Source: Mucilaginibacter gracilis (GTDB lineage: Bacteria; Bacteroidota; Bacteroidia; Sphingobacteriales; Sphingobacteriaceae). Taken from it: a stretch of DNA of 64,000 bases. Each line of letters begins with the position of its first letter. The first letter of the stretch is position 1. Under the pieces are notes generated by a model that was not told where the DNA came from, did not search any database, and was given only the letters and a program-made list of their open reading frames with translations. Shown one piece after another: positions 21,832 through 43,425 of the stretch. Both the position numbers and the translations under genes were made by a program. Where the stretch lies: positions 1,302,001 through 1,366,000 of the forward strand of contig NZ_RBKU01000001.1 of the NCBI RefSeq assembly GCF_003633615.1. The letters run 5' to 3'.

Positions 21832-22836
21832 TTAAAGGGATTGCCTGATAATGATCTTAAATGGGTTTATGATTTGGGCGGGCTTGTTTTCCAGTATCAT
21901 TTTCGCGGTCATTTTCCCCATCGCTTCTAAATCAGTAGTAAGTACCGTAATACCGAGCAATTCTTTGAAGGGTGTATCATGGTAAGATATCAGTCCAATC
22001 TCGTTGCCGGCCAGCAGACCATTTTCTTTTATTTTCTTTAATAAAATGATGAGTTCCGATTCGTCCAGCGTCAGGTAAACTTCGCCTTTATACGGCCCAT
22101 TTTTCTCCACCATATTCCTGATTTCCAAGCCAAGTGATGATTCAGTCGCAAATCGCATTAAGCCCTCGATGATTCCCTGCTGGTGGCCTGTTGAGGGGAT
22201 GAGTAAAATCAGCTTTTCATACTTGGCCAAACGCGCCGAATTTTTTCTGAGCACATTTAAAATGTCGTTGGTATAATCTTGGCAAACAGAATAAGCTGGC
22301 TTGAAACCGGTTATGGTTTTGTCCAATAAAATAAGTTGGCTATCAGGCACTTTACGTAATGTGCTGATGCAAACACTTTCATTGATTCCCTCTCTGAACA
22401 AGGGAAGGATAACATAATAGTGGTATAAGCTGAGCGATTGGTCAATGATTTCATCCAGTAAAGCCAAATCACCATGATGGATCCTAAGGTCAACTTTTAC
22501 CTTTGCCCCGAGCGATGAGACGATTGAATCAAAAACGATCTTTTTATGGGAACTGAGTTCATTAAAGATCAGAAGAACATTGATCGTTTTATTGGACTTG
22601 ACATTAACGAAGTAACCTTTGCCTTTAACGGAGCTGATATAACCAGCTGTTCGCAAACGGGTATAGGCCTTTTCAATGGTATCTCTCGCTACGCCGTATT
22701 GTCTACTGTAAGTATTGATGGAAAGCAGTTGCTGATTCCTTTTATACACACCCTTTTCAATATCCCGGCTTATAGTCATCACAATTTGCTCTACCAGTGG
22801 CACAGTATTATTATAATTGATCTTTGCTTTAGCCAT
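21832..22836 (-). CDS. GntR-type regulator with LacI-like sugar-binding domain
   Basis: A 334-residue transcription factor. Residues about 10-75 are a GntR winged helix, with VEQIVMTISRDIEKGVYK, the recognition part YGVARDTIEKAYTRL, and SVKGKGYFV at the wing. The rest resembles the periplasmic-binding-protein fold of LacI regulators: NVLLIFNELSSHKK, LILLDKTI, GLISYHDTPFKELL and LTTDLEAMGKMTAKMIL. This domain pairing is common in Bacteroidota (FucR-type regulators) and normally senses a sugar. The gene stands alone between PUL 1 and PUL 2, 197 bp from the HTCS and on the same strand. Its upstream region has an inverted repeat and a sequence close to the palindromes found at two SusC control regions, so it may act on those loci. 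The effector is unknown. Confidence 0.88.
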   Translation of the reverse strand: MAKAKINYNNTVPLVEQIVMTISRDIEKGVYKRNQQLLSINTYSRQYGVARDTIEKAYTRLRTAGYISSVKGKGYFVNVKSNKTINVLLIFNELSSHKKIVFDSIVSSLGAKVKVDLRIHHGDLALLDEIIDQSLSLYHYYVILPLFREGINESVCISTLRKVPDSQLILLDKTITGFKPAYSVCQDYTNDILNVLRKNSARLAKYEKLILLIPSTGHQQGIIEGLMRFATESSLGLEIRNMVEKNGPYKGEVYLTLDESELIILLKKIKENGLLAGNEIGLISYHDTPFKELLGITVLTTDLEAMGKMTAKMILENKPAQIINPFKIIIRQSL

Positions 22837-23009
22837 TTCATATGATAAAACATACCGACAGTTTTAATTCCAATTGAAAGCATTCACGCCTTGATTTTTT
22901 AAGTCCGGCGAAAAGTATAGATAACTGCTTGTTTCGAATCTGAATTATAACCAGATCGGTATTTTTGGTTTTATTTGGATGGGATAATATTGAAAAATTC
23001 CCTTTACTA

Positions 23010-23032
23010 ATATAGCGAGAGATTCGCTATAT
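23010..23032. promoter_or_regulatory. Perfect 9-bp inverted repeat upstream of the GntR hybrid
   Basis: ATATAGCGA and TCGCTATAT flank a 5-bp spacer about 175 bp upstream of the GntR start. The symmetry and position suit an operator, possibly autoregulatory. A hairpin in a long leader is the alternative. Confidence 0.4.
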
Positions 23033-23046
23033 ATACAAATAATTTT

Positions 23047-23062
23047 AAAAAATCGGTTGCAA
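23047..23062. promoter_or_regulatory. Putative operator related to the ATACAATCGGTTGCAT palindrome
   Basis: AAAAAATCGGTTGCAA matches the site at the PUL 2 SusC promoter at 13 of 16 positions. It lies about 211 bp upstream of the GntR-hybrid start. One arm (GGTTGCA) is perfect and the other is degenerate, so it is the weakest member of the proposed set. Confidence 0.35.
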
Positions 23063-23426
23063 ATTGCGTGTATTATAAAAAATAATTGATAAATATATAA
23101 AATTAATAATTTAAGTGGAACAATATTGAATATTTGATCAAACATAAAGGACGATTTGGGGCAGTCCGATAAGATTCTTGATAAAAGAATTAGGGTAAAA
23201 TTTTCGTTTGTTACCTATTTTTAGTCCATTACCGGGATTTTTAATTACTATAATTTTCTTTTTTTTATTAAACCCCGTTCCTAAACATATAAAAGTAGCA
23301 AATCATCGACCTTAATCCACTGCCTAACTATAGGTTAATGAAATGGTTATTCCCGGCAGATAATGAAGAGATCGAATTAAAGAGTAAATCCTTCCGTTGT
23401 AATATAGGACAATGAATCGAAATATC

Positions 23427-24191
23427 TTAACCGGCAATTATGATTTCAATTTCTTGATTGCGGAACATGTCCTTATGCTTTTCCTCGATACCGCTGTCTG
23501 TAATAATGTAGCTGATGAGTGATAGGGCACCGAGGCTTGCAAAAGCGCTTTTCCCGAACTTAGTTGAATCTGCCACAAGATAAGTGGTCTCAGCCGCATC
23601 TATCATTGCTTTTTTTACGACGATATCGCTGATACTTGGATATGTTAAACCAGATTTTAAGGAAAGTCCTGCTGTAGCCAGAAACAACTTTTGGATATTA
23701 ATGCCTTTAAAAAAATCTGCCGCTTTTTGGCCTGTAAGCGATAAAGTTGGGGGTTTAAATTCACCTCCGGTCATGATCACCTCAATGCCAGGTTCTGCGC
23801 CTAACATCAACGCTATATTCAAAGCATTAGTAATGACAGTTACCTTCCGATTTCCTTTAAGTTTCCGGGCAATTTCTGTGGTAGTTGAACCGGAATCCAG
23901 AATTATAGTATCCCCATTTTGAATAAATTCAAGACATTTGATCGCAATAATTTCTTTCTTATCCAGATTCTCATGGTTAGCTAATGAAAATGAACTAACC
24001 TGGTCCTGAATATTCTTCAAATAAGCTCCGCCATGCTCTTTAACTAGCAAGCCTTCTTTCTCCAGCTTTTCTAAATCCTGCCGAATGGTAACTTCCGTAA
24101 CTTTAAAGATTTTTGCCAGATTGATTACTTTTGCGGTGCCATCTTCCTGAAGTAATTCCAGAATTTTTTCACGACGTTGATATGCGAGCAT
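23427..24191 (-). CDS. DeoR/GlpR-family sugar-phosphate-responsive repressor
   Basis: A 254-residue DeoR-family regulator of normal length. The N-terminal helix-turn-helix covers residues about 5-60, with RREKILELLQEDG and VTEVTIRQDLEKLEKEG. The C-terminal sensor domain (about 75-235) contains the family signature GDTIILDSGSTTTEIA, TVITNALNIA and MTGGEF. It also has DSTKFGKSAF near the end. Such proteins usually release DNA on binding a phosphorylated sugar made by the pathway they control, which fits the FGGY kinase in the divergent operon. It lies 84 bp downstream of SusD of PUL 2, behind a strong terminator, with its own promoter. A 15-bp sequence at that promoter recurs at the promoter region of the 29362 operon. 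Confidence 0.93.
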   Translation of the reverse strand: MLAYQRREKILELLQEDGTAKVINLAKIFKVTEVTIRQDLEKLEKEGLLVKEHGGAYLKNIQDQVSSFSLANHENLDKKEIIAIKCLEFIQNGDTIILDSGSTTTEIARKLKGNRKVTVITNALNIALMLGAEPGIEVIMTGGEFKPPTLSLTGQKAADFFKGINIQKLFLATAGLSLKSGLTYPSISDIVVKKAMIDAAETTYLVADSTKFGKSAFASLGALSLISYIITDSGIEEKHKDMFRNQEIEIIIAG

Positions 24192-24202
24192 TTTAAATAA
24201 TT

Positions 24203-24221
24203 ATAAATACTGACAAAAATA
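24203..24221 (-). promoter_or_regulatory. deoR promoter -7 element with overlapping candidate DeoR operator
   Basis: On minus, TATTTTTG (24214-24221) matches the Bacteroidota -7 consensus TAnnTTTG. Nineteen bases upstream is TTTC, one base from the -33 TTTG. The -7 runs directly into TCAGTATTTAT, giving the 15-mer TTTGTCAGTATTTAT (24203-24217). That 15-mer is repeated exactly at 29199-29213. Its position over the expected start site suits repression by DeoR. Confidence 0.65.
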
Positions 24222-24234
24222 ACATAAAAACGAA

Positions 24235-24274
24235 GTAAAAGAAAGGGCTAGATTTCTCCAGCCCTTTCTTTTAC
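24235..24274 (-). terminator. Intrinsic terminator after SusD of PUL 2
   Basis: A perfect 15-bp inverted repeat, GTAAAAGAAAGGGCT with AGCCCTTTCTTTTAC, around a 10-base loop. It begins 1 bp after the SusD stop codon. It should end the susCD transcript and separate it from the independently promoted deoR gene. The A-rich base of the stem could also serve a transcript from the other strand. Confidence 0.85.
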
Positions 24275-24275
24275 C

Positions 24276-25940
24276 TTAATTGTATCCTGGGTTTTGCGTA
24301 AAGACGTCTTTATTCGTAGTCGGGTCAAGCTGGCTGGCCTGTGGTATAGGCCTGACCAGATGATAAGATTTAAAATTTGCCGCAGCATCGGGATTCATTG
24401 TCTGGATTCTGCTGGCTAACTTACCCGTCCTTTTCAGATCGAACCATCTTAACTGTTCTCCGCCCAACTCTCTAGCTCTTTCATCCAAAATGAAATCAAT
24501 CGAAACTTGAGCTGGTGTGATCTGCATTTGTGCTACTTTTCCGGGCTTAGCAGCACGGGTTCTGATTACGTTAATATAAGTAGCAGCAGTGCCCGGATCT
24601 CCAAGATTAAACTTCGCTTCGGCTGCAACAAGGTACATTTCTGCTAGTCTTATTACAAAGACATCTCTTGCACTTTGAGCTTCAGCAACGCTAGCGCGCG
24701 TTGAATCTTTGAACTTTGATAAAGAAATGACAAACTTACGTTGAATCGGTATGCTTGTGGCCATATCGTAAACTTTTGGAAGATCATAAGTGATATATTT
24801 TTTGCTTTGCGATGCTAAGGGAATAGTAGCATTTGGAGTATAACAAATAGTATCTCCAACTTTAATAGCGTTACCGTTATAGTTTCCTGCTTTGTTAGCA
24901 TACCATACGTTCTGGAACGAACCACTGTAACGGGAATCGTTCGCTTGATCGAACAAATTCAGATAAGCCAGTGTCGGCATATATCGATTAAAGGGACGGC
25001 CGTTTGGAATATCGCGGGCAAGCAAAGCAGAGTTGACCTGATCGTAAACCATTAGATACATCATGTGCCCGTTATTGGATCCGCGATAATGACCATAGGG
25101 ATAGGTTGATGAACTTAAATCGTTATTAGCCAAATTGGTAGAGTAGTCAATTGCCCATATGACTTCTTTGTTTTTGAGATTGCCCATGTTCCATAGGTCA
25201 ACAAACCGGGGTTGCAGCGCATAACCGTAGTTTTTTATGACATCATCCGCCAAGGCGAAAGCTTCAGCATTCATACCTCTTGTTAAGTACATGCGGGCTA
25301 AGAACGCTTTGGCAACCGGAATCGTCGCACGGCCGTAATCTGTCGTACTTACAGGTAAATTTGCCACAGCAAATTTTAGGTCAGTAAATATCTGCGTATA
25401 AAATGTTTCAACAGGTGTTCTGTTAGCCGTTGTAACTGCTCCGTCGGTAGGTGTGGTCGTAAAGTTTACACCTCCCCACGTTTCTACGATATGCCAATAA
25501 TAAAATGCCCTTAGGAATCGTAATTCTGCTTCCCTGGTCGTTTTTTGAGCTGCAGTATAATCCGTGACGTTACCGATACCGGCAATGCCGGTATTACACA
25601 AATTTACCCCTGCATAAAGATTGTTCCACAATAATGGCAGCGGGTCAGCTGTCCCTTGTAAATTGTAATATTGCGTGAACATAGGATATGGGTCCCCTGC
25701 TCCACTTGTCCAGATATCTGTTCCCATTTCTGCTGCAAGATAGCCTTCTTCCTTACCATACCAAAACCTGGAAAAAGTATACGCTGCATTAACCAATGTT
25801 TCAAAGCCTACTGCCTTGGTATAAAATGTAGAAGCCGTAAAACCACTTGGATTATATTCGTCAAGTTTCTTTGTGCATGAGCTAAACATCAATATGCCAG
25901 CCAAAAGGATTAAAATCCCGCTATAAATAATTTTTTTCAT
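24276..25940 (-). CDS. SusD/RagB-family outer-membrane lipoprotein (PUL 2)
   Basis: A 554-residue lipoprotein with signal peptide and lipobox LMFSSCTKKLDEYNP. Typical SusD elements are LWNNLYAGVNLCNTGI, RFLRAFYYWHIVETWGG and AKAFLARMYLTRGMNAEA in the TPR-like half. The C-terminal half has RLAEMYLVAAEAKFNLG, INVIRTRAA, DFILDERARELGGEQLRWFDLKRTGKL and the ending TQNPGYN. It follows SusC by 20 bp and would form the lid of that transporter. It belongs to the same locus as the divergent ABC/catabolic operon and may capture an apiose-containing or related pectic glycan. That ligand is an inference from neighbours. Confidence 0.95.
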   Translation of the reverse strand: MKKIIYSGILILLAGILMFSSCTKKLDEYNPSGFTASTFYTKAVGFETLVNAAYTFSRFWYGKEEGYLAAEMGTDIWTSGAGDPYPMFTQYYNLQGTADPLPLLWNNLYAGVNLCNTGIAGIGNVTDYTAAQKTTREAELRFLRAFYYWHIVETWGGVNFTTTPTDGAVTTANRTPVETFYTQIFTDLKFAVANLPVSTTDYGRATIPVAKAFLARMYLTRGMNAEAFALADDVIKNYGYALQPRFVDLWNMGNLKNKEVIWAIDYSTNLANNDLSSSTYPYGHYRGSNNGHMMYLMVYDQVNSALLARDIPNGRPFNRYMPTLAYLNLFDQANDSRYSGSFQNVWYANKAGNYNGNAIKVGDTICYTPNATIPLASQSKKYITYDLPKVYDMATSIPIQRKFVISLSKFKDSTRASVAEAQSARDVFVIRLAEMYLVAAEAKFNLGDPGTAATYINVIRTRAAKPGKVAQMQITPAQVSIDFILDERARELGGEQLRWFDLKRTGKLASRIQTMNPDAAANFKSYHLVRPIPQASQLDPTTNKDVFTQNPGYN

Positions 25941-25960
25941 GATGCTCTGATTAATAATTT

Positions 25961-28960
25961 TTATAATGAAACATTAAGACCTGCCAAAAATAATTTAGTT
26001 AACGGCCTGTCGAAAGATCCACCGCCTTCAGGATCGTAGTCTTTAATTTTAGAAAAGGTTAGAAAATTTTTAGCGCTTATATATAACCTTAAATTAGAAA
26101 CATGAAGGGCTTTGGTTATCCCCGGTGAGAAATTATAACCCAGGCTTGCACTTCTTATTTTCACGAATGATCCATCTTTGTAACCTAGAGTAGAAGCAAA
26201 TGGAGTAGCTGATTTAGAGATATTCGCATTCGGCCTAGGATAGTCATTTGTTGGATTTTCAGGAGTCCAATAATCAACATTAGCGCCGTTTTCTATTGCA
26301 TTCGGTTCATATTTTAATGCGTATTGTGAAACGAACATCTGACCAATTCTTCCATAAACTAATACGTTCAAATCAAAGCTCTTGTATTTAAAATCATTGC
26401 TGAATCCAAAACTATATTTTGGGACAGCTGAACCGAGCACAACCCGGTCTCCGGCGGCAGTGATTGTCCCGCTACCGTCAATATCGGCGACTTTGATATC
26501 GCCGGGCTTATAGCCGTAAACGGCAGCCTGAGCAGCTTCCGATGTCTGCCAGATGCCTAGCTTTTGGTAATCGAAATAGGAAACCACAGGATAGCCTATA
26601 AACCAGTTATTGCCTAAGTCGTTTACGCCGTTAGGCAAATAGGTAATACGTTCTTTATTACGAGTATAGGTAATATTTGACGACCAGGAGAATTTATTTG
26701 TTTTGATATTATTGGTTCGTACGGTAAGCTCAATACCTGTATTCCGGCTCCTGCCCACATTAGCCAATGTTGTAAGGGCTCCTGTCGAAGACGGAAGCTT
26801 CTGACTCAATAACAAGTCCCGGGTTTGAGAGTCATAATAATCGATACTTCCAGAAATTCTATCCCGGAATACACCAAAATCTATCCCCGCATTTAATGTT
26901 CCCGTCAACTCCCACTTTAATTTTTGATTTCCGATGTTGGGGTCCAGTTCATAGGCCAGTGCGGTGATATCATTATAAGAATAGGGCACTAAGATCAGAC
27001 CACTTTGGGTTTGATAGGGTTTAACAGCTGCATTACCAGCTACGCCATAACTTAAACGTGCCTTTAACTCGGATACTACGCTTTGGCTTTTCATAAATGG
27101 TTCGTCAATAATTCTCCAGGCAGCTGCTGCAGAAGGAAAGAATGCCCATTTATTTCCTTTGGCTAAAACCGATGAACCATCAGCTCGCCCTGTCAGGGTC
27201 AACAAATATCTTTCTTTGAAAGAATAATTTAAGCGCAATGCCCCCGATTCAAGATTTTGCCCAACATAATTACTTGATATCTTGAGATTGGCAGGATTGT
27301 TTTGTAAGGCATAGAAAGATTGGTCTGATAACAATTGTCCCGTACCTGACGCCGATGCCTGATCTGAAACGCTTGATTGGTAACTGGTTACACCCGTTAA
27401 CGTAAAGTTATGATGGTTTATTTTTCTCTGGTAGGTAATAATATTCTCCCATATTAAATTATTATCGGTTGAATTGGTTTCAGAAGAAAGAGAACCCGAT
27501 GAAAGCGCCCGGTTTAATGTATTGGTACCTTCGAAATGCCCATTTCTTGAACTGGACAAAGTCACACCTAAATTCGACCGTATGGTAAGGCCGTCTGCCG
27601 GTTTCCATTCCGCGTAGGCAGTGGAAAGCAAATGTGTTATATTATTTTTATTAACATATTGCCCTGCCTCCTCATCATAAAGCGGGTTAACCTGATTTCC
27701 GTTACCCGGAAACTTAGCCAGACTGCCGTCCGCACTGTAGGGATTAAAATATGGAATGATCTTGTTAGCGACAGACAATACGTTATCACTTCTTAAATTT
27801 TGATCGTAATAAGCAAGCTGACTTTGTAAGCCAACTTTAAAATCCTTAAAAAGTTCATGATCAACATTTAAACGCAGGCTGTAACGGCTCGAATAATCAT
27901 TGGTATACAAACCTTTTTCTTTGAAATAGTCAAAAGAAAAGTAAGCTTTTGTTTTATCATTGCCGCCTGAAACACTGGCATTATAGTCCTGTTGCGAGCC
28001 TTTATGCAAAAAATATCCCGGCCAATAATAAGAATCGCCGTTTTGAACTGCTGCAAGATCCCCGGAACTTGTAAAAACTTTCGGGTCGTCGGCTGTCGAA
28101 TTCCAGGTACCTATAGTGCGATAGCCCTCCCGTTTCAAATTGGCGTATTGAGGACCTGTCATCGGCACAGGATAACCGGTAATCTCGCTGACGCCGTAAT
28201 AGCTTCCTGCACTTACCTTCGGCTTACCTTCACCCCCTCTTTTAGTGGTGATAATAATAACTCCGTTTGCACCACGTGAACCGTAAATCGCTGTAGAAGA
28301 TGCATCCTTCAAAAATTCCATGGATGCGATGTCGTTTTGGTTTATATCTTCATAGTTAGAATAAATGATTCCATCGACGATGTATAAAGGGCTGTTACTG
28401 GCATTTAATGAGCGGTTTCCTCTAACCGTTACACCGACTCCGGCTCCGGCTGCGCCGCTAGTCCGGGTAATATCCACGCCAGCAACCTTCCCCTGTAAGG
28501 CCTCCATAGGGTTGGATGCTGCAACTTTTGTAATTTCGTCACCTTTAACGGAAACGACAGATCCGGTAAGGTCTCTTTTACGAACTGTTCCATATCCAAC
28601 GATAATTACTTGTTCTAAAGATTTCACAGAGGGTGTCAATGTGATTTTGAGTGTTGTTTTACCACCAATACTTTGTTCAAGTGGTTCATATCCAATAAAA
28701 CTGTATACTAATATAGCTCCCATTCCAGGTACGTTGATGGAGAAGTTTCCGCCTACATCAGTTGCAACTCCATTGCTTGTACCCTTTAGCTTGACAGATA
28801 CACCGGGAAGGGGGGCCCCTTTTTCATCCAACACAATTCCGGCTATTCTAATCAACTGTTTAGCATTTGCGGATGTTTGCGCCACTGATTGTTTGGGAAG
28901 AACAAACAGCAGCATTTGCGAAAGTAAAATGCATGTTAGTAAGTTTTTGATTGATCTCAT
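25961..28960 (-). CDS. SusC/RagA-family TonB-dependent transporter (PUL 2)
   Basis: A 999-residue outer-membrane transporter with signal peptide ending QSVAQ. A carboxypeptidase-regulatory-like domain follows (about residues 40-115, with GIVLDEKGAPLPGVSVKLKG). Next are the TonB-box-like VIIVGYGT near residue 120 and the plug with LQGKVAGVDITRTSG and AIYGSRGANGVIIITTKRG. A full barrel ends KLFLAGLNVSL. It starts the susCD transcript. Upstream on minus there is a textbook Bacteroidota promoter with a near-palindromic operator next to the -33 element. The gene is divergent from the isomerase/ABC operon across 401 bp, consistent with joint regulation of outer-membrane uptake and inner-membrane catabolism. 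Confidence 0.96.
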   Translation of the reverse strand: MRSIKNLLTCILLSQMLLFVLPKQSVAQTSANAKQLIRIAGIVLDEKGAPLPGVSVKLKGTSNGVATDVGGNFSINVPGMGAILVYSFIGYEPLEQSIGGKTTLKITLTPSVKSLEQVIIVGYGTVRKRDLTGSVVSVKGDEITKVAASNPMEALQGKVAGVDITRTSGAAGAGVGVTVRGNRSLNASNSPLYIVDGIIYSNYEDINQNDIASMEFLKDASSTAIYGSRGANGVIIITTKRGGEGKPKVSAGSYYGVSEITGYPVPMTGPQYANLKREGYRTIGTWNSTADDPKVFTSSGDLAAVQNGDSYYWPGYFLHKGSQQDYNASVSGGNDKTKAYFSFDYFKEKGLYTNDYSSRYSLRLNVDHELFKDFKVGLQSQLAYYDQNLRSDNVLSVANKIIPYFNPYSADGSLAKFPGNGNQVNPLYDEEAGQYVNKNNITHLLSTAYAEWKPADGLTIRSNLGVTLSSSRNGHFEGTNTLNRALSSGSLSSETNSTDNNLIWENIITYQRKINHHNFTLTGVTSYQSSVSDQASASGTGQLLSDQSFYALQNNPANLKISSNYVGQNLESGALRLNYSFKERYLLTLTGRADGSSVLAKGNKWAFFPSAAAAWRIIDEPFMKSQSVVSELKARLSYGVAGNAAVKPYQTQSGLILVPYSYNDITALAYELDPNIGNQKLKWELTGTLNAGIDFGVFRDRISGSIDYYDSQTRDLLLSQKLPSSTGALTTLANVGRSRNTGIELTVRTNNIKTNKFSWSSNITYTRNKERITYLPNGVNDLGNNWFIGYPVVSYFDYQKLGIWQTSEAAQAAVYGYKPGDIKVADIDGSGTITAAGDRVVLGSAVPKYSFGFSNDFKYKSFDLNVLVYGRIGQMFVSQYALKYEPNAIENGANVDYWTPENPTNDYPRPNANISKSATPFASTLGYKDGSFVKIRSASLGYNFSPGITKALHVSNLRLYISAKNFLTFSKIKDYDPEGGGSFDRPLTKLFLAGLNVSL

Positions 28961-29005
28961 AAGTTTAATTTTGGTTCACTTGAAATAACTTTAGTTTTAT
29001 TGTTA

Positions 29006-29034
29006 CAAACATAAGTAATCGTAAACCCAACAAA
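29006..29034 (-). promoter_or_regulatory. SusC promoter of PUL 2 (TTTG-N17-TATGTTTG)
   Basis: Read on minus, TTTG (29031-29034) is followed after 17 bp by TATGTTTG (29006-29013). This is an exact match to the Bacteroidota -33/-7 consensus. The predicted start is about 40 bp upstream of the SusC ATG at 28960. Confidence 0.75.
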
Positions 29035-29049
29035 TGCAACCGATTGTAT
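29034..29049. promoter_or_regulatory. Near-palindromic operator at the PUL 2 SusC promoter
   Basis: ATGCAACCGATTGTAT, or ATACAATCGGTTGCAT on minus, is symmetric at 12 of 16 positions around a central CG and abuts the -33 TTTG. It differs by one base from 53658-53673 in the PUL 3 control region. A central CG with outward TTGCA/TTGTA arms is typical of LacI-family operators, but no classical LacI gene is present in the window. Confidence 0.6.
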
Positions 29050-29194
29050 TTTTTAGAATTATAAAAAAAATCAAGAAATTGTCTGCTTAAATGATAAATA
29101 ATGAGTGGATAATTTATCAGAAAAGAAAAAAATAAAGACAAAAGCAGACTTAAATAGCTAAAAACTTCCAAAATATGAAACTCTTAGTCCCATT

Positions 29195-29213
29195 TAAATT
29201 TGTCAGTATTTAT
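29195..29213 (+). promoter_or_regulatory. -7-like element with candidate DeoR operator for the isomerase/ABC operon
   Basis: TAAATTTG (29195-29202) fits the TAnnTTTG consensus and is followed at once by TCAGTATTTAT, exactly as at the deoR promoter. The -33 position is weak (TATG at 29174-29177, 17-bp spacing). It lies about 150 bp upstream of the isomerase ATG, implying a long leader. Confidence 0.6.
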
Positions 29214-29361
29214 CTATTTCTTCTTTTATTTTCTATTTTAGCCCTGTAAATGATTATAATGGTATTTACAAGTTGCATAAACATCAAAAAAACTATTCAA
29301 CCCGAACTATACTGAACCGCGTTGTTCAGATTTTTACAAAACGATCAGAAATATTAAAAAT

Positions 29362-30771
29362 ATGAGTAATAAAGCAACATTAGGGGTAATTATAGGTAAT
29401 CGTGATTTTTTTCCGGACAGGTTGGTTTCTGAAGCCCGTGCCGATATTATTGCCCTTTTTACCCAACTGAACATTAATGCCATTATGCTGGGCGATACCG
29501 AATCAAAACTTGGCGGTGTTGAAACCTTTAAAGATGCCCAGAAATGTGCCGATTTATTCAAAAAACATCGTGAAGAGATTACAGGTATCATGGTATTCCT
29601 GCCAAATTTTGGCGATGAAAAAGGTGTTGCAGATACCATTAAATTGTCAGGATTAAACGTTCCGGTGCTGATTCAGGCCTACCCCGATGATCTGAATAAA
29701 CTGGATGTAGCACGCCGCCGCGATTCATGGTGCGGTAAAATTTCGGTTTGCAACAACCTTTACCAGTACGGCATCAAATACACCCTAACCGATGATCACG
29801 TCACTCATCCGAGCGACCCCCAATTTATCGCCAACCTAAAAGATTTTGTGGCCATTTGCCGCGTAGTTAAAGGTTTACGCAGTGTTCGCATTGGCGCTAT
29901 TGGTGCCAGGCCGGGAGCTTTTAATACCGTTCGCTACAGCGAGAAGATATTACAGCGTAACGGCATTACCGTAACCACTGCCGACCTGAGTGAGATTTTA
30001 GGCAAAGCCGACAAGTTAACGGCAGAACACCCCGAAGTACAGGCGCACTTAAATAAGATAAATGCTTATGCGCCTAAAGGCCTCACGCCCGACGATGCGA
30101 TGATACAAATAGCCAAACTGGACGTAGTGCTTAACCAGTTTATGGACGAGCATGCATTGGATGCAACAGCCATACAATGCTGGACATCGCTACAGCAAAA
30201 TTACGGCTGCAACGTTTGTACCAGCATGAGCATTATGAGCGAGAATATGCTGCCAAGTGCCTGCGAGGTTGATGTTACCGGAACATTAACCATGTATGCC
30301 ATGCAACTGGCATCGGGTTCGCCAAGTGCGCTGGTAGATTGGAATAACAACTATGCTGATGACCCTAATAAATGTGTGCTGTTTCATTGCGGTAACTGGG
30401 CAAAATCTTTTCTGCCGGATATTCAGATCAGCACCGCCCCTATTTTGGGTACTACCGTTGGTGTAGAAAATACTTACGGCGCTCTGGATGGCCGCACCCC
30501 GGCATCGCCGTTAACCTACGGCCGAATCAGTACCGATGATCCTAAAGGCATCATCAAAGTTTACCTTGGCGAAGGCGAACTGACCGACGACGCGTTAAAC
30601 ACCTTTGGTAACCGCGCTGTAGCGGAGATACCTGATCTGCAAAGTTTGATGCAATACGTTTGCCGCAACGGTTTTGAGCACCACGTGGTAATGAACGCTT
30701 CAAAAACAGCCGGCATATTAAAAGAGGCATTAGGCAATTACATGGGCTGGGAAATTTACGAACACAAGTAA
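29362..30771 (+). CDS. L-fucose/L-arabinose isomerase-family protein (sugar isomerase)
   Basis: A 469-residue cytoplasmic protein of the broad L-fucose/L-arabinose isomerase family (COG2407-like), with no signal peptide. Features include GVIIGNRDFFPDRLV at the N-terminus, VLIQAYPDD, VRIGAIGARPGAFNTVRYSEKIL, and SENMLPSACEVDVTG, which holds acidic residues suitable for the metal site. It also has LFHCGNWAKSF and MNASKTAGILKEAL near the end. The family interconverts aldoses and ketoses at a divalent metal. Here it is the first gene of an operon with a split transketolase, an ABC importer and an FGGY kinase. It is therefore the likely first step after import, for example D-apiose to D-apulose. 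As I recall, published D-apiose isomerases belong to a different fold family, so the substrate is open. Confidence 0.82.
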   Translation: MSNKATLGVIIGNRDFFPDRLVSEARADIIALFTQLNINAIMLGDTESKLGGVETFKDAQKCADLFKKHREEITGIMVFLPNFGDEKGVADTIKLSGLNVPVLIQAYPDDLNKLDVARRRDSWCGKISVCNNLYQYGIKYTLTDDHVTHPSDPQFIANLKDFVAICRVVKGLRSVRIGAIGARPGAFNTVRYSEKILQRNGITVTTADLSEILGKADKLTAEHPEVQAHLNKINAYAPKGLTPDDAMIQIAKLDVVLNQFMDEHALDATAIQCWTSLQQNYGCNVCTSMSIMSENMLPSACEVDVTGTLTMYAMQLASGSPSALVDWNNNYADDPNKCVLFHCGNWAKSFLPDIQISTAPILGTTVGVENTYGALDGRTPASPLTYGRISTDDPKGIIKVYLGEGELTDDALNTFGNRAVAEIPDLQSLMQYVCRNGFEHHVVMNASKTAGILKEALGNYMGWEIYEHK

Positions 30772-30772
30772 A

Positions 30773-31597
30773 ATGACAGACAAAGAGTTAAAAGAAAAAT
30801 CAGTTGGGTATCGTAAAAAGATCCTCAAATATATTGTAGGCGCCAATGCCGGGCACACGGGTGGCAGCCTATCGTGCATTGATGTGTTGAACGTTTTGTA
30901 TAACGATGTGCTGAATGTGAGTCCGGATAATTTTACTTCGCCGGATCGCGACCGTTACATCCAGAGCAAGGGCCATTGTGTTGAAGCGCTTTTTGTGGTA
31001 CTGGCCGACAAAGGCTTCTTCCCGGAAACGGATCTTGAAACATTATGCAAATATAAATCCCATTACATAGGCCATCCTACTAAAAAGGTACATGGCGTTG
31101 AGCAAAATACAGGCGCTTTGGGGCACGGGTTACCAATTGCTGCCGGTGTTGCGCTTGCCGCGAAACTGGATAAAAAAGACTATCGTGTTTTTACCCTTTT
31201 GGGGGACGGTGAACTGCCCGAAGGTTCAAACTGGGAGGCGGCTTTAACAGCTTCGCATTACAAGTTGGATAACCTTTGCGCCATCATCGATAACAATAAA
31301 CTGCAAATTACAGGTACTAATGCCGAGGTATGTAATACTGACCCGCTTGACGCCAAGTTTGAAAGCTTTGGATGGGCCGTAAAACAGGTTGACGGACACG
31401 ATATTCATGCGTTGCGCGAGGCATTTGCCAGTATGCCTTTTGAGCCGGGAAAACCTAACCTGATTATAGCCCATACCATTAAAGGTAAAGGCATCAGCTT
31501 TATGGAAAACTCGGTAAAGTGGCACCACGGTGTACCTAACCACGAACAATATCAAAGCGCCATGACCGAACTGGATGTGGCACTCACCAACATTTAA
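30773..31597 (+). CDS. Transketolase N-terminal subunit
   Basis: A 274-residue protein matching the thiamine-diphosphate-binding half of transketolase. It contains GANAGHTGGSLSCIDVL, SKGHCVEALFVVLAD and GALGHGLPIAAGVALAAK. The TPP/Mg motif runs LLGDGELPEGSNWEAAL to IDNNKLQ, and VKWHHGVPN is near the end. It begins 1 bp after the isomerase stop and overlaps the next gene, so the two halves are probably made in equal amounts. Split transketolases of this kind often act in specialised pentose pathways. In D-apiose catabolism, the pair AptA/AptB converts apulose 4-phosphate plus glyceraldehyde 3-phosphate to xylulose 5-phosphate plus dihydroxyacetone phosphate. Here that role is inferred from context. 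Confidence 0.9.
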   Translation: MTDKELKEKSVGYRKKILKYIVGANAGHTGGSLSCIDVLNVLYNDVLNVSPDNFTSPDRDRYIQSKGHCVEALFVVLADKGFFPETDLETLCKYKSHYIGHPTKKVHGVEQNTGALGHGLPIAAGVALAAKLDKKDYRVFTLLGDGELPEGSNWEAALTASHYKLDNLCAIIDNNKLQITGTNAEVCNTDPLDAKFESFGWAVKQVDGHDIHALREAFASMPFEPGKPNLIIAHTIKGKGISFMENSVKWHHGVPNHEQYQSAMTELDVALTNI

Positions 31598-32570
31598 TAC
31601 CACGAACTTGGGAACAGTTATAAAAAATACTTCGGCTAACGCCAAACCAAACCAGGATGTTTTTGCGGCTACCTTATTAAAGCTTGCCGAAACTGATAAA
31701 GATATTATTGCCGTTACCAGCGATTCGCGCGGTTCGGGCAAGCTGGTTGCATTCGGGCAGCAATTGCCCGAGCAGATTGTAGAGATAGGCATTGCCGAGC
31801 AAAACCTGGTAGGCGTTGCCGCCGGATTGGCTTCGGCAGGTAAAAAAGCATTCGCGGTATCACCAGCTTGTTTTTTAACCGCTAGAGCTTTGGAGCAGAT
31901 CAAAAACGATGTTTGTTACTCAGATAATCCTGTAAGGTTAATTGGCATTAGCGCCGGTGTAAGTTACGGAGCATTGGGAACAACGCACCACAGTCTGCAC
32001 GATTTTGCCGTACTGCGCGCCATCAATAATATTACCATTGTAGTACCTGCCGATAATTTTGAAACCGAGCAAGCTGTAAAATTGGCTGCACAAAGCACCA
32101 AGCCAGTTTACCTGCGCTTCGGTAAAAAACCAATGCCTCTTTTAACCGAAGATGAGAATATTGGTTTTGAGTTTGGCAAAGGCAGGGTGGTGAAAAATGG
32201 CGGCGATATAACAATCATCGCCAACGGCGAAACCGTTTACCCAGCCCTGTTAGCCGCGCAAAAGCTGGAAGAATCGGGCATATTGGCAACGGTAGTGAGC
32301 ATGCATACCATTAAACCTTTAGACGTAACATTGATTGCACAGTTAGCTTCTGAAACAAAAGCCATTATAACGGTGGAGGAGCACATGATCAATGGCGGTT
32401 TAGGTGAGGCCTGCGCATCCTACTTATTACAAAGTGGACACAAAAAGCCTTTTAAAATCATGGGCATCCCTGACGAGTACACCGTTACGGGCTCTCAGGT
32501 TGAGATATTGAACCACTACGGAATTTCGGCAGATGGGATTGCCGATCAAGCCATTAAACTACTATCATAA
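31575..32570 (+). CDS. Transketolase C-terminal subunit
   Basis: The pyrimidine-binding and C-terminal domains of transketolase in up to 331 residues. Key stretches are DIIAVTSDSRGSGKL, the catalytic-Glu motif VEIGIAEQNLVGVAAGLA, TTHHSLHDFAVLRAI, VPADNFETEQAV, and YLRFGKKPMPLL. The region TIIANGETVYPALLAA and KAIITVEEHMINGGLG form the last domain. The ATG at 31575 overlaps the N-subunit gene by 23 bp and gives a poorly conserved leader of about 10 residues. An in-frame TTG near 31608 just before GTVIKNTS is an alternative start. Together with the preceding gene it makes a complete enzyme. Confidence 0.9.
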   Translation: MWHSPTFNTTNLGTVIKNTSANAKPNQDVFAATLLKLAETDKDIIAVTSDSRGSGKLVAFGQQLPEQIVEIGIAEQNLVGVAAGLASAGKKAFAVSPACFLTARALEQIKNDVCYSDNPVRLIGISAGVSYGALGTTHHSLHDFAVLRAINNITIVVPADNFETEQAVKLAAQSTKPVYLRFGKKPMPLLTEDENIGFEFGKGRVVKNGGDITIIANGETVYPALLAAQKLEESGILATVVSMHTIKPLDVTLIAQLASETKAIITVEEHMINGGLGEACASYLLQSGHKKPFKIMGIPDEYTVTGSQVEILNHYGISADGIADQAIKLLS

Positions 32571-32626
32571 GGAAACTGATAAACAAAGAAGAATACCAAT
32601 AATGAAACTTAGATTATATCATTTGA

Positions 32627-33565
32627 ATGAGAAGATTAACACTGTTATTGTTATTTATGCTGGCTTTTGCCGGCTGTAAGGATAATTCAAAATCGGCCAA
32701 AGCCAAAAAGGTAGCGGTTATTGTATCTACACTCAATAATCCCTGGTTTGTGTTTTTAGCGCAAACAGCTTCGGCGCAAGCTAAAAGTTTGGGTTACGAA
32801 ACCAAGATCTTTGATTCGCAAAACAACACCGCTACCGAAACCGATAACTTTGAAAATGCCATCGCCGCTGGCTATGGCGCTATCCTGTTCAATCCTACAG
32901 ATGCCAATGGCTCTGTAGTCAATGTAAATAAAGCCAAAGCAGCCGGTGTAGCAGTTTTTTGCATGGACAGGGAGGTGAACTCTGCCACCGGACCAACATC
33001 GCAGATCTTATCTGATAGTTATTCAGGCTGTGTGAACCTTGGTAAATACTTTGTGAAGCAAATGCGCAAAAAAGGCAAATATGTTGAGATACTAGGCATT
33101 GTTGCCGATAACAACACCTGGAATCGCTCTAAAGGATTCCACAGCGTGGTTGATTATTACCCCGGCTTACAAATGGTAGCCCAGCAAAGTGCCGATTTTG
33201 ACCGCAATAAAGGTCTGGAAGTAATGGAATCCATCTTACAGGCACACCCTGATATCGATGGTGTGTTCTGCGGGAACGATGCCATGGCCATGGGTGCCTA
33301 CCAGGCTTTAGCTGCAGCAGGCAAAGCTAACAAAGTAAAAGTAATGGGTTTTGATGGCGCTGAAGATGCTATACAAGGCATTAAGGATGGAAAGATATTG
33401 GCTACCGCGATGCAGTTCCCTAAGGTGATGGCGCAAACTGCTGCCAATTACGCCGATGAATATTTTAAGGGTAAGCGAGACTTCCCGAAAAAGATTCAGG
33501 TTGGAGTAGAGATGGTAACCGGTAAAAACGTATCTGATTACATAGCCTACGGTAAAAAGAATTAA
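32627..33565 (+). CDS. RbsB-like ABC-transporter substrate-binding lipoprotein
   Basis: A 312-residue periplasmic-binding protein of the ribose/galactose class (peripla_BP_4). The signal peptide has lipobox LAFAGCKDN, so it is membrane-anchored. The positions that contact ribose in E. coli RbsB appear conserved in order: LNNPWF, FCMDR, WNRSKG, CGNDAMAMG, GFDGAED and MQFP. The ligand is thus probably a small furanose- or pentose-like sugar such as ribose, D-apiose or a ketopentose. It starts 56 bp after the transketolase and is followed by the other transporter parts at 3-9 bp spacing. ABC sugar importers of this kind are unusual in Bacteroidota PULs, which mostly use secondary transporters. 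Confidence 0.92.
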   Translation: MRRLTLLLLFMLAFAGCKDNSKSAKAKKVAVIVSTLNNPWFVFLAQTASAQAKSLGYETKIFDSQNNTATETDNFENAIAAGYGAILFNPTDANGSVVNVNKAKAAGVAVFCMDREVNSATGPTSQILSDSYSGCVNLGKYFVKQMRKKGKYVEILGIVADNNTWNRSKGFHSVVDYYPGLQMVAQQSADFDRNKGLEVMESILQAHPDIDGVFCGNDAMAMGAYQALAAAGKANKVKVMGFDGAEDAIQGIKDGKILATAMQFPKVMAQTAANYADEYFKGKRDFPKKIQVGVEMVTGKNVSDYIAYGKKN

Positions 33566-33568
33566 GCC

Positions 33569-34186
33569 ATGAGAAAGGAAATCAAATATGCCATCTGGTT
33601 CGTGATCATTATTTTTATAGGTTATAACTCGGTTTATTTCCGTAAGTTGAGCGAGTTAAAAGCCACCGGAAAAACATTTAACGCTGTTGCTTACGCGCAA
33701 GACCTGCTGACTAATAAACTACCCGCCGTTACAGAAAAGGCTATTACGCTTGATGAATTAATTACGCAACTTAAAGTATCACCGGCTAACACTTTTGCCG
33801 AAAACGGTCATGTCCTCTCTATAGGCAGCACCAAATTTTTCATGGTGAAAGGCACGGGCACCATTACTGATATGGACGATAGCGATGTGAAGCTTTCAAC
33901 CATAGCACATAACGATTTCCAAATAGCTACCGAGTTTGTATTTGGCAATGCCATTCGTGATGCCTCGGGTTTGGTTGATCTGAACGATTTTACCAATACA
34001 GTAGATCTGAGCAATATTTCTTCGGAAATCAATAAGATCATCCGCGCTAAGGTGATCCCACCATTTAAATCGGCAGCTAAAAAAGGCGATAAGATTGAGT
34101 TTACAGGCGCCGTAGAACTTAATCAGGCACATCTAAACCTAAACGATATTGAGATGCTCCCTGTATCTCTAAAAATAATTCCTTAA
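33569..34186 (+). CDS. DUF2291-family protein, ABC-importer partner
   Basis: A 205-residue protein with one N-terminal membrane segment (IKYAIWFVIIIFIGYNSVYF) and a soluble periplasmic domain. It contains NAVAYAQDLLTNKLPAV, FFMVKGTGTITDMDDSDV, IATEFVFGNAIRDASGL and VIPPFKSAAKKGDKIEFTGAVEL, characteristic of DUF2291. This family is typically encoded between a sugar-binding protein and its ATPase and permease, as here (3 bp and 4 bp spacing). It has an uncleaved anchor rather than a lipobox. Its role is unknown; a helper for ligand delivery or transporter stability is a guess. Confidence 0.82.
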   Translation: MRKEIKYAIWFVIIIFIGYNSVYFRKLSELKATGKTFNAVAYAQDLLTNKLPAVTEKAITLDELITQLKVSPANTFAENGHVLSIGSTKFFMVKGTGTITDMDDSDVKLSTIAHNDFQIATEFVFGNAIRDASGLVDLNDFTNTVDLSNISSEINKIIRAKVIPPFKSAAKKGDKIEFTGAVELNQAHLNLNDIEMLPVSLKIIP

Positions 34187-34190
34187 GGTT

Positions 34191-35693
34191 ATGTTGATAG
34201 CAGATCATATCACCAAAAAATTCCCCGGCGTTATTGCTTTGCAGGATGTTTACATGGAGCTGCATCCCGGCAAGGTAAATGCGATACTGGGCGAGAACGG
34301 CGCGGGTAAATCTACGCTGATGAAAATCCTATCAGGCGTTTATTCTGAATACGAAGGCCGCATTTTATTACAGGATACCGAGGTAAACTTTGCTAATCCG
34401 CGCGAAGCACAGGGCGCGGGCATCGGCATTATTCACCAGGAGCTAAATTTAGTGCCCCACCTCAATATCACCGAGAATATATTCTTAGGACGCGAGTTAA
34501 CCAATAACTGGGGCATGCTGGATGGCAAGGCCATGAAAAACCGCACCCAATACCTTTTAGATAAACTGAAGCTGAAGGTTAGTCCGGATACGTTGATCTT
34601 TGATTTAAAGGTTGGTCAGCAGCAGGTGGTTGAAATTGCCAAGGCCCTGCTAACCGATTGCCAGGTTCTGATTATGGATGAACCAACTTCGGCCATTACC
34701 GAGAGCGAGGTTGAGGTATTGTTCGATATCATCAAAGAACTTCGCGATGAGAATAAGGTGATCGTATACATATCGCATAAGCTGGATGAGCTTTTTAAAA
34801 TAGCCGACCGTTACATTGTGCTTCGCGATGGCAAAACCATCGAATCGGGCGAGATGAAAGATATTAACCACGATACGCTGATCCATAAAATGGTTGGCCG
34901 CGAGATCAACGTCATTCGCAACAAAGGCTACAAAGCCACCGCCGGGCCTGTACTTACTGTACAAAATATTAACCTAAAACATCCTGAAAACCAAAAACGT
35001 GATCTGTTAAAGAACGTATCACTGCAACTTTGCCCCGGTGAGGTTTTGGGCATTTTCGGTTTAATGGGCGCCGGGCGTACCGAATTATTGGAAACCATTT
35101 TCGGTTTGCATAAGGCTCATACCGGTACTATCAGTATCCAACAGCAGGCAACAAAATTTAGATCGCCGGGCGAGGCTATGAAAGCCGGAATAGCTTTGGT
35201 ACCCGAAGACCGCAAGAAAGACGGCCTGGTATTGGGGTTGGATGTAAAAACCAATATTAGCATTACCACATTGGATAATCTGCAAAGCATGGGTTTGCTG
35301 AGCGATGGTAAAGAACAGGAACTGGCGAAAAGATATATCGATTCGCTCAAGATCAAAACACCGTCGGCTAATCAGATCACCAAAAACCTGAGTGGTGGTA
35401 ACCAGCAAAAAATAGTACTGGCTAAATGCCTGGCTACCCAGCCTATTGTGCTGATGCTGGACGAGCCAACGCGTGGTATTGATATCAACGCCAAAAACGA
35501 GATTTACAAACTGATATTAGAACTGGCTGCAGCGGGTATGGGCATCATTATGGTATCATCCGAATTGCCGGAGATACTCGCCATATCCGATCGCATCCTG
35601 GTAATGGCCGAAGGCAGCATTACTGCCGAATTTAAAGCCGCCGATGCATCCGAAGATAACATCCTGAAAGCAGCCATTCCTAAAAACCTATAA
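34191..35693 (+). CDS. RbsA/MglA-like ABC transporter ATPase (two nucleotide-binding domains)
   Basis: A 500-residue cytoplasmic ATPase with two tandem ABC domains, the normal size for the RbsA/MglA class. The first domain has Walker A GENGAGKSTLMK, a signature region LKVGQQQVVEIAKAL and Walker B VLIMDEPTSAI. The second has the usual degenerate Walker A FGLMGAGRTELLE, the signature NLSGGNQQKIVLAKC and Walker B VLMLDEPTRGID. The EDRKKDGLVL motif between them is typical. It powers import of the sugar bound by the upstream lipoprotein through the permease 9 bp downstream. Confidence 0.95.
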   Translation: MLIADHITKKFPGVIALQDVYMELHPGKVNAILGENGAGKSTLMKILSGVYSEYEGRILLQDTEVNFANPREAQGAGIGIIHQELNLVPHLNITENIFLGRELTNNWGMLDGKAMKNRTQYLLDKLKLKVSPDTLIFDLKVGQQQVVEIAKALLTDCQVLIMDEPTSAITESEVEVLFDIIKELRDENKVIVYISHKLDELFKIADRYIVLRDGKTIESGEMKDINHDTLIHKMVGREINVIRNKGYKATAGPVLTVQNINLKHPENQKRDLLKNVSLQLCPGEVLGIFGLMGAGRTELLETIFGLHKAHTGTISIQQQATKFRSPGEAMKAGIALVPEDRKKDGLVLGLDVKTNISITTLDNLQSMGLLSDGKEQELAKRYIDSLKIKTPSANQITKNLSGGNQQKIVLAKCLATQPIVLMLDEPTRGIDINAKNEIYKLILELAAAGMGIIMVSSELPEILAISDRILVMAEGSITAEFKAADASEDNILKAAIPKNL

Positions 35694-35702
35694 CAAACTT
35701 AA

Positions 35703-36671
35703 ATGACCTTGAATCGCCAACATTTCGCCAAATTCCAATCGCTTATAGCGCTTGTGGTTTTGTGCATCGTATTGAGTTGCCTGTCGGATAAGTTCCTAAC
35801 CGTAGATAACGGCTGGAACGTAATGCGCCAAATATCTGTTAACATTTGTATAGCCGTAGGGATGACACTGGTTGTATTAACCTCGGGAATCGACTTATCC
35901 GTAGGATCGGTATTGGCCCTTTGCGGCGCTATTACGGCAGGACTGATGAAAAATGGTATTGAAGTGCATTCGAGTAACCTCTACATCGGTTTCACATTGT
36001 TGGGCGCTATCCTTGCGGGATTATTTACCGGCGCAGGTGTGGGCGCATTTAACGGCTTTGCCATCACACGTTTCAAAGTGCCACCATTTGTGGCTACACT
36101 GGCCATGCTCACTATTGCAAGGGGCTTAACCTTGTTATGGACACAGGGCTTTCCGATCTCTGTATTCGGCGAAAAATTCGGTTACATCGGTACCGGCTGG
36201 TTTTTAGGTATACCGGTTCCGGTTTGGATCTCGGCTATTGTTGTTTTAACAGCGGTTGTTATCACGATGAAAACTCCGTTGGGCCGATATATTTATGCCA
36301 TTGGCGGTAACGAAAATGCGGCTAAATTATCAGGCATCAACATCAGCAAAGTCAAGATCATCGTTTACAGCATGGCCGGAGCACTGGCCGCCGTGGGTGG
36401 TTTGATCGTCACTTCAAGATTGGATTCTGCTCAGCCAAATGCCGGTATTAGTTACGAACTGGACGCTATCGCAGCTGTGGTGATTGGCGGCACTTCCTTA
36501 TCGGGAGGCAAAGGCACCATTTGGGGAACCGTGCTTGGCGCAGTTATCATTGGTGTGCTTAACAATGGACTGGTATTGCTTAACGTATCGCCTTTTTGGC
36601 AGCAGGTGGTTAAAGGCGGCGTAATTTTACTCGCCGTGATTATTGACAAGGCTAATTCTAAATCCGAGTGA
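35703..36671 (+). CDS. RbsC-like ABC transporter permease
   Basis: A 322-residue integral membrane permease of the branched-chain/ribose type. Eight to ten hydrophobic segments are visible, beginning SLIALVVLCIVLSCLS. The family stretches TLVVLTSGIDLSVGSVLAL, FNGFAITRFKVPPFVATLAML, YIYAIGGNENAAKLSGI (cytoplasmic loop contacting the ATPase) and AVVIGGTSLSGGKGTIWGT are all present. As usual for this class it forms a homodimer. Its stop codon overlaps the possible starts of the sugar kinase gene. Confidence 0.95.
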   Translation: MTLNRQHFAKFQSLIALVVLCIVLSCLSDKFLTVDNGWNVMRQISVNICIAVGMTLVVLTSGIDLSVGSVLALCGAITAGLMKNGIEVHSSNLYIGFTLLGAILAGLFTGAGVGAFNGFAITRFKVPPFVATLAMLTIARGLTLLWTQGFPISVFGEKFGYIGTGWFLGIPVPVWISAIVVLTAVVITMKTPLGRYIYAIGGNENAAKLSGINISKVKIIVYSMAGALAAVGGLIVTSRLDSAQPNAGISYELDAIAAVVIGGTSLSGGKGTIWGTVLGAVIIGVLNNGLVLLNVSPFWQQVVKGGVILLAVIIDKANSKSE

Positions 36672-38170
36672 TGATGGATCAAAAATATATACTGGCGATA
36701 GACCAGGGCACCAGCAGCACCAAGTCGACTATTTTTGATGAAAAGGGTAATGCCATCGCACGGGGCCAGGTGGACTTGGCTACGCAGTTTTTAGATGGAG
36801 GAATGGTAGAACAAGATCCTTTAGGGATATTTGAAAATGTGTTGGCATCTGTTTCCCTTTGCCTTGAGGCTTTTCGCCGAACAGGTAAAGATACAGGATC
36901 CATCTTAAGCATTGGGATATCCAATCAGCGGGAAACCTTTGTCGTATGGGACGCTAACGGAGATCCCTTGCACAATGCTGTTGTGTGGCAATGCAAACGT
37001 TCGATCGATATCTGCAACCAATTGATTAATGGCGGGTTTAAAAAAACGGTAAAAGAACGTACAGGGCTGATCATCGACCCCTACTTCTCTGCATCAAAAT
37101 TGATATGGTTATATCAAAATAAAGATAAAGTCAGGGCGGCCATAGACACTGGCAATGCTTATTTTGGCACGATTGACACCTGGCTTTTATTTAAACTGAC
37201 AGGGGGCAAGCGCTATCTCACTGATCACACAAATGCTTCACGGACAATGCTTTTTAACTTATCAACATTAAACTGGGACACCTATCTTTTGGCAACTTTC
37301 GGTTTAGATAAGATAAATCTACCGGAAGTAATTGCCTCTTCGTCTGATTTTGGCGCAAGCGACTTTGGTGGGTCATTTGACCGGGAGATACCGATCGGGG
37401 CGATGATCGGCGATTCCCATGCCGCGGCATTTGGCGAAGGTTGTTTTGAGCAAGGCCAGGCGAAAGCAACATTGGGAACAGGCTGTTCCATTATGATGAA
37501 TGCCGGTACGGATTTGCCTTCCGGTAGCGAGGGGGTTGTTACGACAATATGTTGGAGTACATCAACGAGAGTGGATTATGGGCTTGAGGGTGTGATCGTT
37601 TCCTGTGGTTCGACGATGGAGTGGCTGCGCAGGGAGCTCACTCTTTTTAGTGATATCAAGCAAACGCAGGATATGGCCAATAGCGTGCTTGATAATAACG
37701 GTGTTTATATTATCCCGGCATTCAGCGGCATGGGTGCACCGTATTGGCAGATGGACAGAAAAGGGGAGCTTCTTGGCTTAACTTTTAACACCTCCAAAAA
37801 CCACATCGTCAGGGCTGGTTTGGAGTCAATCGCTTACCAGATCCGGTCTGTGATCGACGCAATGGAAAATGCCGCGCAACTGGACCTACGCATGTTGATT
37901 GTCAATGGCGGTATAATCTCTAACAACTTTGTTTTAGGTTTTCTTACCGATCTTTTAAACAAACCCTTGTATTACGGAATATCGGATGCGTCTGGCTTGG
38001 GTGCTGCTATGCTAGCGGGTTTGCAGGCCGGACTTTTTGAAAGCCTTGAAGAGATCAAGGCATTGGCTAAGCCTAAATCTACCGTGATGCCAACAATAAA
38101 CCCAACCTCGGTTCAGGTAAACTACCATACATGGTTAGCTCACGTAAACAGAACCTATACAGATAAATGA
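36671..38170 (+). CDS. FGGY-family carbohydrate kinase (GlpK-like in sequence)
   Basis: A 499-residue kinase with both FGGY ATPase domains. It shows YILAIDQGTSSTKSTIFDEKG (phosphate-1 loop), SIGISNQRETFVVWD, VVWQCKRSIDICNQL, the hinge/catalytic region MIGDSHAAAFGEGC, ATLGTGCSIMMN and GMGAPYWQMDRKG. It also has the adenosine-site region MLIVNGGIISNNFVL and ASGLGAAMLAG. A GTG at 36668 is also possible, but the ATG pair at 36671/36674 is more natural; either start overlaps or abuts the RbsC stop. The sequence resembles glycerol kinase, yet no glycerol genes are near. Beside an isomerase and transketolase, a ketose such as D-apulose is a better candidate substrate. D-apulose kinases (AplK) belong to the same FGGY family. 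Confidence 0.9.
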   Translation: MMDQKYILAIDQGTSSTKSTIFDEKGNAIARGQVDLATQFLDGGMVEQDPLGIFENVLASVSLCLEAFRRTGKDTGSILSIGISNQRETFVVWDANGDPLHNAVVWQCKRSIDICNQLINGGFKKTVKERTGLIIDPYFSASKLIWLYQNKDKVRAAIDTGNAYFGTIDTWLLFKLTGGKRYLTDHTNASRTMLFNLSTLNWDTYLLATFGLDKINLPEVIASSSDFGASDFGGSFDREIPIGAMIGDSHAAAFGEGCFEQGQAKATLGTGCSIMMNAGTDLPSGSEGVVTTICWSTSTRVDYGLEGVIVSCGSTMEWLRRELTLFSDIKQTQDMANSVLDNNGVYIIPAFSGMGAPYWQMDRKGELLGLTFNTSKNHIVRAGLESIAYQIRSVIDAMENAAQLDLRMLIVNGGIISNNFVLGFLTDLLNKPLYYGISDASGLGAAMLAGLQAGLFESLEEIKALAKPKSTVMPTINPTSVQVNYHTWLAHVNRTYTDK

Positions 38171-39765: not shown

Positions 39766-39803
39766 AACTAATTAATATGAATGGCATATATTACTATAAG
39801 AAC

Positions 39804-41972: not shown

Positions 41973-42014
41973 AAATAATGTTACGGACTTTAACAAATTA
42001 AACTCGCAAAAAAC

Positions 42015-43403: not shown

Positions 43404-43425
43404 ATATTTTAATTAAATAACGATC

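Follow-up and report, generated by a model that had tools for sequence, protein, structure and literature searches.

A shared 15-bp promoter end is probably not the operator of a local DeoR-family regulator, which is predicted to recognise a conserved 10-bp tandem array in Bacteroidota

The window, that is, the whole 64,000-nucleotide stretch of Mucilaginibacter gracilis DNA that was analysed, contains a gene for a DeoR-family regulator (deoR, 23427 to 24191, minus strand), followed by susD (24276 to 25940) and susC (25961 to 28960), both on the minus strand and assigned by NCBIfam matches to SusD and RagA/SusC, and, on the plus strand, by a predicted regulated operon (29362 to 38170). This operon, recognised by family searches and its conserved gene order, comprises genes for an isomerase, a split transketolase, a binding protein, a DUF2291 protein, an ABC ATPase, a permease, and an FGGY kinase. 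Glycosidases are encoded behind it (38167 to 44793, plus strand), two of them hydrolases with apiosidase domains (Pfam PF13204) at 38167 to 39765 (66.6 bits) and 42015 to 43403 (385.7 bits). In the gap between susD and deoR, a terminator-like hairpin with a 20-pair stem and a T-rich tail (24233 to 24276, minus strand) was found. The regulator carries both domains by which the DeoR family is recognised, an N-terminal HTH_DeoR (58.2 bits) and a C-terminal DeoRC domain (168.4 bits), each over its Pfam cut-off, and its best NCBIfam score was with the AgaR model (212.9 bits, under the cut-off of 260 for that model). Across 80 aligned sequences, the HTH region had a mean identity of 79% to that of the window. 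An Rfam search of 22800 to 29700 returned a single sub-threshold match and nothing more.

The catabolic operon had previously been described as divergent from deoR; in the window it is not directly so, since susD and susC lie in between. Of the 80 related loci that were fetched, most had deoR directly upstream of the isomerase gene and on the same strand, and the isomerase gene was followed by genes for the split transketolase, binding protein, DUF2291 protein, ABC transporter, and kinase. G324 and L009 had deoR adjacent to and divergent from the isomerase gene with no susCD between them, and in L068 the order was susC-susD-deoR-isomerase, all on one strand. As judged from these loci, DeoR is a local regulator that has been conserved, its gene most often standing immediately before the isomerase operon. 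The SusC proteins of the closest relatives, G313 and G370 (loci L151 and L152), have a longer N terminus (1116 versus 999 amino acids in the window), and their susCD genes adjoin a putative sigma/anti-sigma pair and hydrolases judged pectin-type from sequence alone. That the window SusC is without this N-terminal extension and sits in the DeoR locus suggests a switch of control.

The sequence TTTGTCAGTATTTAT was present exactly at 24203 to 24217 (minus strand), before deoR, and at 29199 to 29213 (plus strand), before the isomerase operon; coordinates and strands of both copies were checked and agreed with the earlier note in which the element had been proposed. Also as claimed there, the TTTG of each copy is the end of a perfect TAnnTTTG box, TATTTTTG at deoR (24221 to 24214) and TAAATTTG at the isomerase operon (29195 to 29202), TAnnTTTG being a known −7 box of Bacteroidota (PMC7366714, PMC9723704). 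Local alignment of the two promoter regions gave exactly 15 bp, with identity ending sharply on either side, and the two copies form an exact inverted repeat flanking susCD. Taking the −7 box as positions −12 to −5, we infer start sites near 24209 (deoR) and 29207 (isomerase operon); both promoters are predicted to be of the sigma-A type, with start sites predicted from the boxes. When the rest of the 6.66-Mb genome was searched, a check proposed together with the element, no further exact copies of TTTGTCAGTATTTAT were found, and matches with up to two mismatches were as numerous as those of a reversed-pattern control (37 versus 37). A 15-mer regulon was looked for among six near matches (L003 to L008) and not found: L003 to L006 and L008 were within coding frames, including both one-mismatch matches elsewhere in the genome (L003 and L004), and L007, a two-mismatch match, was outside frames of at least 90 amino acids. 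A search of a plasmid collection found nothing.

Chance was a tolerable explanation of the match, which had been held to be an unlikely one. Among 300 further genomes from the family, the 15-mer had 3 exact matches and the reversed control had 4, so that a second copy is unexpected genome-wide. Against this, at least one 15-mer common to two intergenic segments arose in 11% of dinucleotide shuffles of all window intergenic segments (mean, 0.12), a figure that disregards the common position behind a −7 box, which would make the pair less likely, and also disregards the many other patterns that might have been reported. Moreover, a longer and unrelated coincidence, which served as an internal control, lies in the same window: the 17-mer ATTTGATCAAACATAAA occurs as an exact direct repeat at 426 to 442 and 23132 to 23148 and has no other exact copies in the genome. 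The copy at 426 to 442 lies across the point where an open-ended, RND-efflux-like coding frame starts, and the copy at 23132 to 23148 is intergenic; once that frame is counted as coding, the real window contains one pair of intergenic segments with a common 15-mer. An exact 15-mer pair at matching promoter positions is a somewhat unlikely product of chance, which counts against coincidence; even so, two ordinary promoter ends that are alike by chance are the most likely explanation.

Conservation of the 15-mer was assessed in 172 upstream regions of deoR and isomerase genes from related loci; these include the same genomes fetched by two routes, so the independent regions are somewhat fewer than 172. 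The best match averaged 9.610 of 15 positions, compared with 9.613 for permuted 15-mers. TCAGTATTTAT was sought in every non-identical relative examined and was absent from all of them, including the Mucilaginibacter-group G324 and L009, the DeoR proteins of which are 87% and 82% identical to that of the window. Related promoters retained the −7 box and not the next 11 bases: the deoR −7 boxes of G324 and L009 were TATCTTTG and TAAGTTTG, the isomerase promoter had TAATTTTG in L016 and the variant TAATTTTTG in G324, and in each case the bases behind differed from those of the window. L016 thus kept the isomerase −7 box and G324 almost kept it, with TCAGTATTTAT in neither. G319 was the only other genome with both copies, in the same orientation as in the window; it differs from the window by 1 base in 10.3 kb and was left out, since so near-identical a sequence is no independent evidence of conservation. 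The 15-mer also had no 10- to 11-bp direct-repeat periodicity, each promoter having a single 15-bp copy with sharp ends. The earlier note had named lack of conservation in related loci as the outcome that would speak against TCAGTATTTAT as the DeoR operator; this is what the orthologous loci gave, and the operator reading consequently does not hold. On the sequences compared, the 15-mer is not supported as an operator of DeoR.

A tandem repeat with a period of 10 bp, TTTTCGTTTATTTTCGTTTA, was conserved upstream of deoR; this type of repeat presumably resembles the AgaR site of Escherichia coli. Motif discovery in 59 dereplicated deoR upstream regions returned TTTTCGTTTATTTTCGTTT, with no window sequence included in the discovery set or in the matrices. 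Distances between C residues on the T-rich strand of related loci peaked at 10, 20, and 30 bp (85, 46, and 37 pairs), in keeping with the 10- to 11-bp direct repeats of DeoR-type operators. For 51 of 57 loci, the best match of the entire fetched locus was no more than 350 bp upstream of deoR, a count that rests on the loci that trained the matrix. As training was on deoR upstream regions, the untrained isomerase upstream regions provide a fairer test; those of L016, L065, L071 to L073, L099, and L102 scored 17.8 to 23.1, that of L062 scored 13.2, and that of the window scored 18.3. Scores did not exceed 2.9 in L010 to L014, whose fetched flanks are without a deoR, or 2.6 in L075, L078, L079, and L083, which have no deoR nearby. 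The 10-base motif is very probably a true, if predicted, DeoR binding site across Bacteroidota. The isomerase operon is the same in the Mucilaginibacter-group loci L010 to L014, but neither a deoR in the flank nor an array accompanies it, and for G121, G219, and G240, genomes of this group, no DeoR match was listed in a genus search at an E value of 1e-90. In L029, L032, L043, L058, and L080, the strongest operator-like site was farther than 350 bp from deoR on its upstream side, or in another place; these sites, such as that of L058 at 324, possibly mark further regulon members.

In the window, the predicted DeoR operator of the isomerase operon (29207 to 29241, plus strand) consists of tandem 10-bp T-rich repeats that follow closely on the isomerase promoter box and take up positions +1 to +35 or so. 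It was the top window match of the 19- and 31-position matrices, but not of the 25-position matrix; its score was reached by 0 of 1,000 shuffles of its own 212 bp (29150 to 29361) and by 6 of 1,000 shuffles of the whole intergenic region. It aligned with the corresponding sequences of G324 and L016, with TTTTCTATTTT common to them. The array is periodic, conserved and linked to deoR in related loci (51/57), and present at the target promoter (0/1,000), whereas the 15-mer is present yet not conserved. The array and the isomerase-side 15-mer meet in the last seven bases of the latter, which DeoR could therefore occupy without recognising them specifically. A probable candidate site was located upstream of susC (29007 to 29025, minus strand; matrix score, 16.2; reached by 20 of 1,000 shuffles), and in L068 the strongest array site was upstream of its own susC. 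At the deoR promoter, a degenerate and doubtful site (24228 to 24246, minus strand; score, 8.3; reached by 60 of 1,000 shuffles) overlaps the 20-pair stem of the susD terminator and is largely made of that terminator. Two results count against these sites: a whole-genome scan with a covariance model of the array, built on sequence only, was not specific (best E value, 0.9; window operators not listed), and in a cmsearch of the window a coding-region match at 22021 to 22039 ranked over the operators. This strong operator-like match is within a GntR-family gene and is probably a coding coincidence. The isomerase leader contains a small terminator-like hairpin, CTGAACCGCGTTGTTCAG (29312 to 29329), followed by ATTTTT, and in G324 the hairpin at a comparable position of the leader is a different one; folding of the isomerase 5′ leader was no better than that of shuffled sequences (z, 0.60).

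The proposal that DeoR controls both itself and the operon can thus be retained in part. Control of the ABC/catabolic operon, to which the conserved gene linkage and the array by the isomerase promoter point, is likely, although not via TCAGTATTTAT or the 15-mer as a whole; autoregulation is less well founded, the best site at the deoR promoter being weak. Taken together, we consider it quite probable that the 15-mers are coincidental promoter ends and not an operator and that the local DeoR recognises the 10-bp T-rich array. Binding, repression, the inducer, and the start sites are inferred as follows. DeoR would recognise tandem 10-bp T-rich repeats with the consensus TTTTCGTTTA, one per helical turn, with array sites covering roughly +1 to +35 of the isomerase operon (29207 to 29241), probably a second site before susC, and perhaps one at the deoR promoter. 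When no sugar is available, a DeoR oligomer along the array would block transcription, and a phosphorylated sugar intermediate would release DeoR, by analogy with other DeoR-family repressors.

Three other explanations of the 15-mer pair were weighed. That TCAGTATTTAT is a DeoR operator newly evolved in this strain and common to deoR and the catabolic operon, as the earlier note would have it, appears improbable. DeoR binding would then depend on the 15-mer stretch TCAGTATTT and not on the array; an exact, genome-unique pair at equivalent promoter positions favours such an operator, and the simulated chance level, while not negligible, is not high, but the absence of TCAGTATTTAT from all non-identical relatives despite a conserved DeoR and HTH, the lack of a 10-bp repeat structure, and the fact that another motif tracks deoR argue against it. 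We regard it as no less improbable that the 15-mer is a start-site element serving another regulator or promoter strength independently of DeoR: at both promoters it does extend over the predicted start site, but conservation is lacking, and both one-mismatch matches in the genome are in coding frames. There is similarly little to be said for a recombination site or scar, either used in or left by a rearrangement in which the susCD block came to change its place or orientation between deoR and the isomerase gene. Here, the exact inverted repeats that bracket susD-susC and the close relatives G324 and L009 without susCD at this place are set against the position of the copies in promoters rather than at the susCD ends and the unchanged orientation in G319; no recombinase came up in passing.

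Coincidental promoter ends next to a DeoR array thus remain the preferred reading, and the case illustrates how two promoters of one locus can match exactly over 15 bp, and nowhere else in the genome, by coincidence. A false operator is removed, and a testable one is put in its place. A conserved operator of a regulator that occurs from Flavobacterium to Spirosoma would make it possible to predict a regulon for what would be a widespread plant-sugar operon. A limited literature search found no paper on regulation of the isomerase operon, a weak indication that no such paper has been published. As to substrate, the sole NCBIfam match of the isomerase was to the sulfoquinovose isomerase model (92.7 of 700 bits), and a solved-structure sequence search with this protein found nothing. 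Matches to the apiosidase-domain proteins of the window recurred near some related loci. The operon looks like one for catabolism of D-apiose or a pectin sugar; the apiosidase domains, the pathway-like enzymes, and the susCD relatives beside hydrolases judged pectin-type make D-apiose a reasonable guess. Tentatively, and with rather less than even confidence, we propose that the TTTTCGTTTA array serves an uncharacterised DeoR-type regulator as its operator, that this regulator controls D-apiose or related pectin-sugar catabolism in several Bacteroidota orders, and that here a SusCD pair related to sigma/anti-sigma-associated pectin loci has also come under this repressor.

D-Apiose catabolic clusters comprise apsI, aplK, aptA, and aptB (PMC13001218), and the window is similar, at the level of domains, in that an isomerase, a sugar kinase, and a split transketolase are encoded in one operon adjoined by apiosidase-domain hydrolases; it differs in that the window isomerase has an L-fucose-isomerase C-terminal domain. 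Like sigma-A promoters of Bacteroidota, both window 15-mers start inside a perfect TAnnTTTG box; unlike them, the isomerase promoter of the window has no clear TTTG −33 box by eye. DeoR-family repressors with tandem-repeat operators (the RhaR groups and AgaR of E. coli) belong to the same protein family as the window regulator, and other DeoR-family regulators act as oligomers (PMC10991401). The motifs of the RhaR groups are imperfect direct repeats with a 10- to 11-bp periodicity (PMC3870299), and the operator-like motif of the present loci, with its imperfect direct repeats of 10-bp period, is alike. The RhaR and AgaR systems differ from that of the window, where the operator is a predicted one, in both gene set and repeat sequence.
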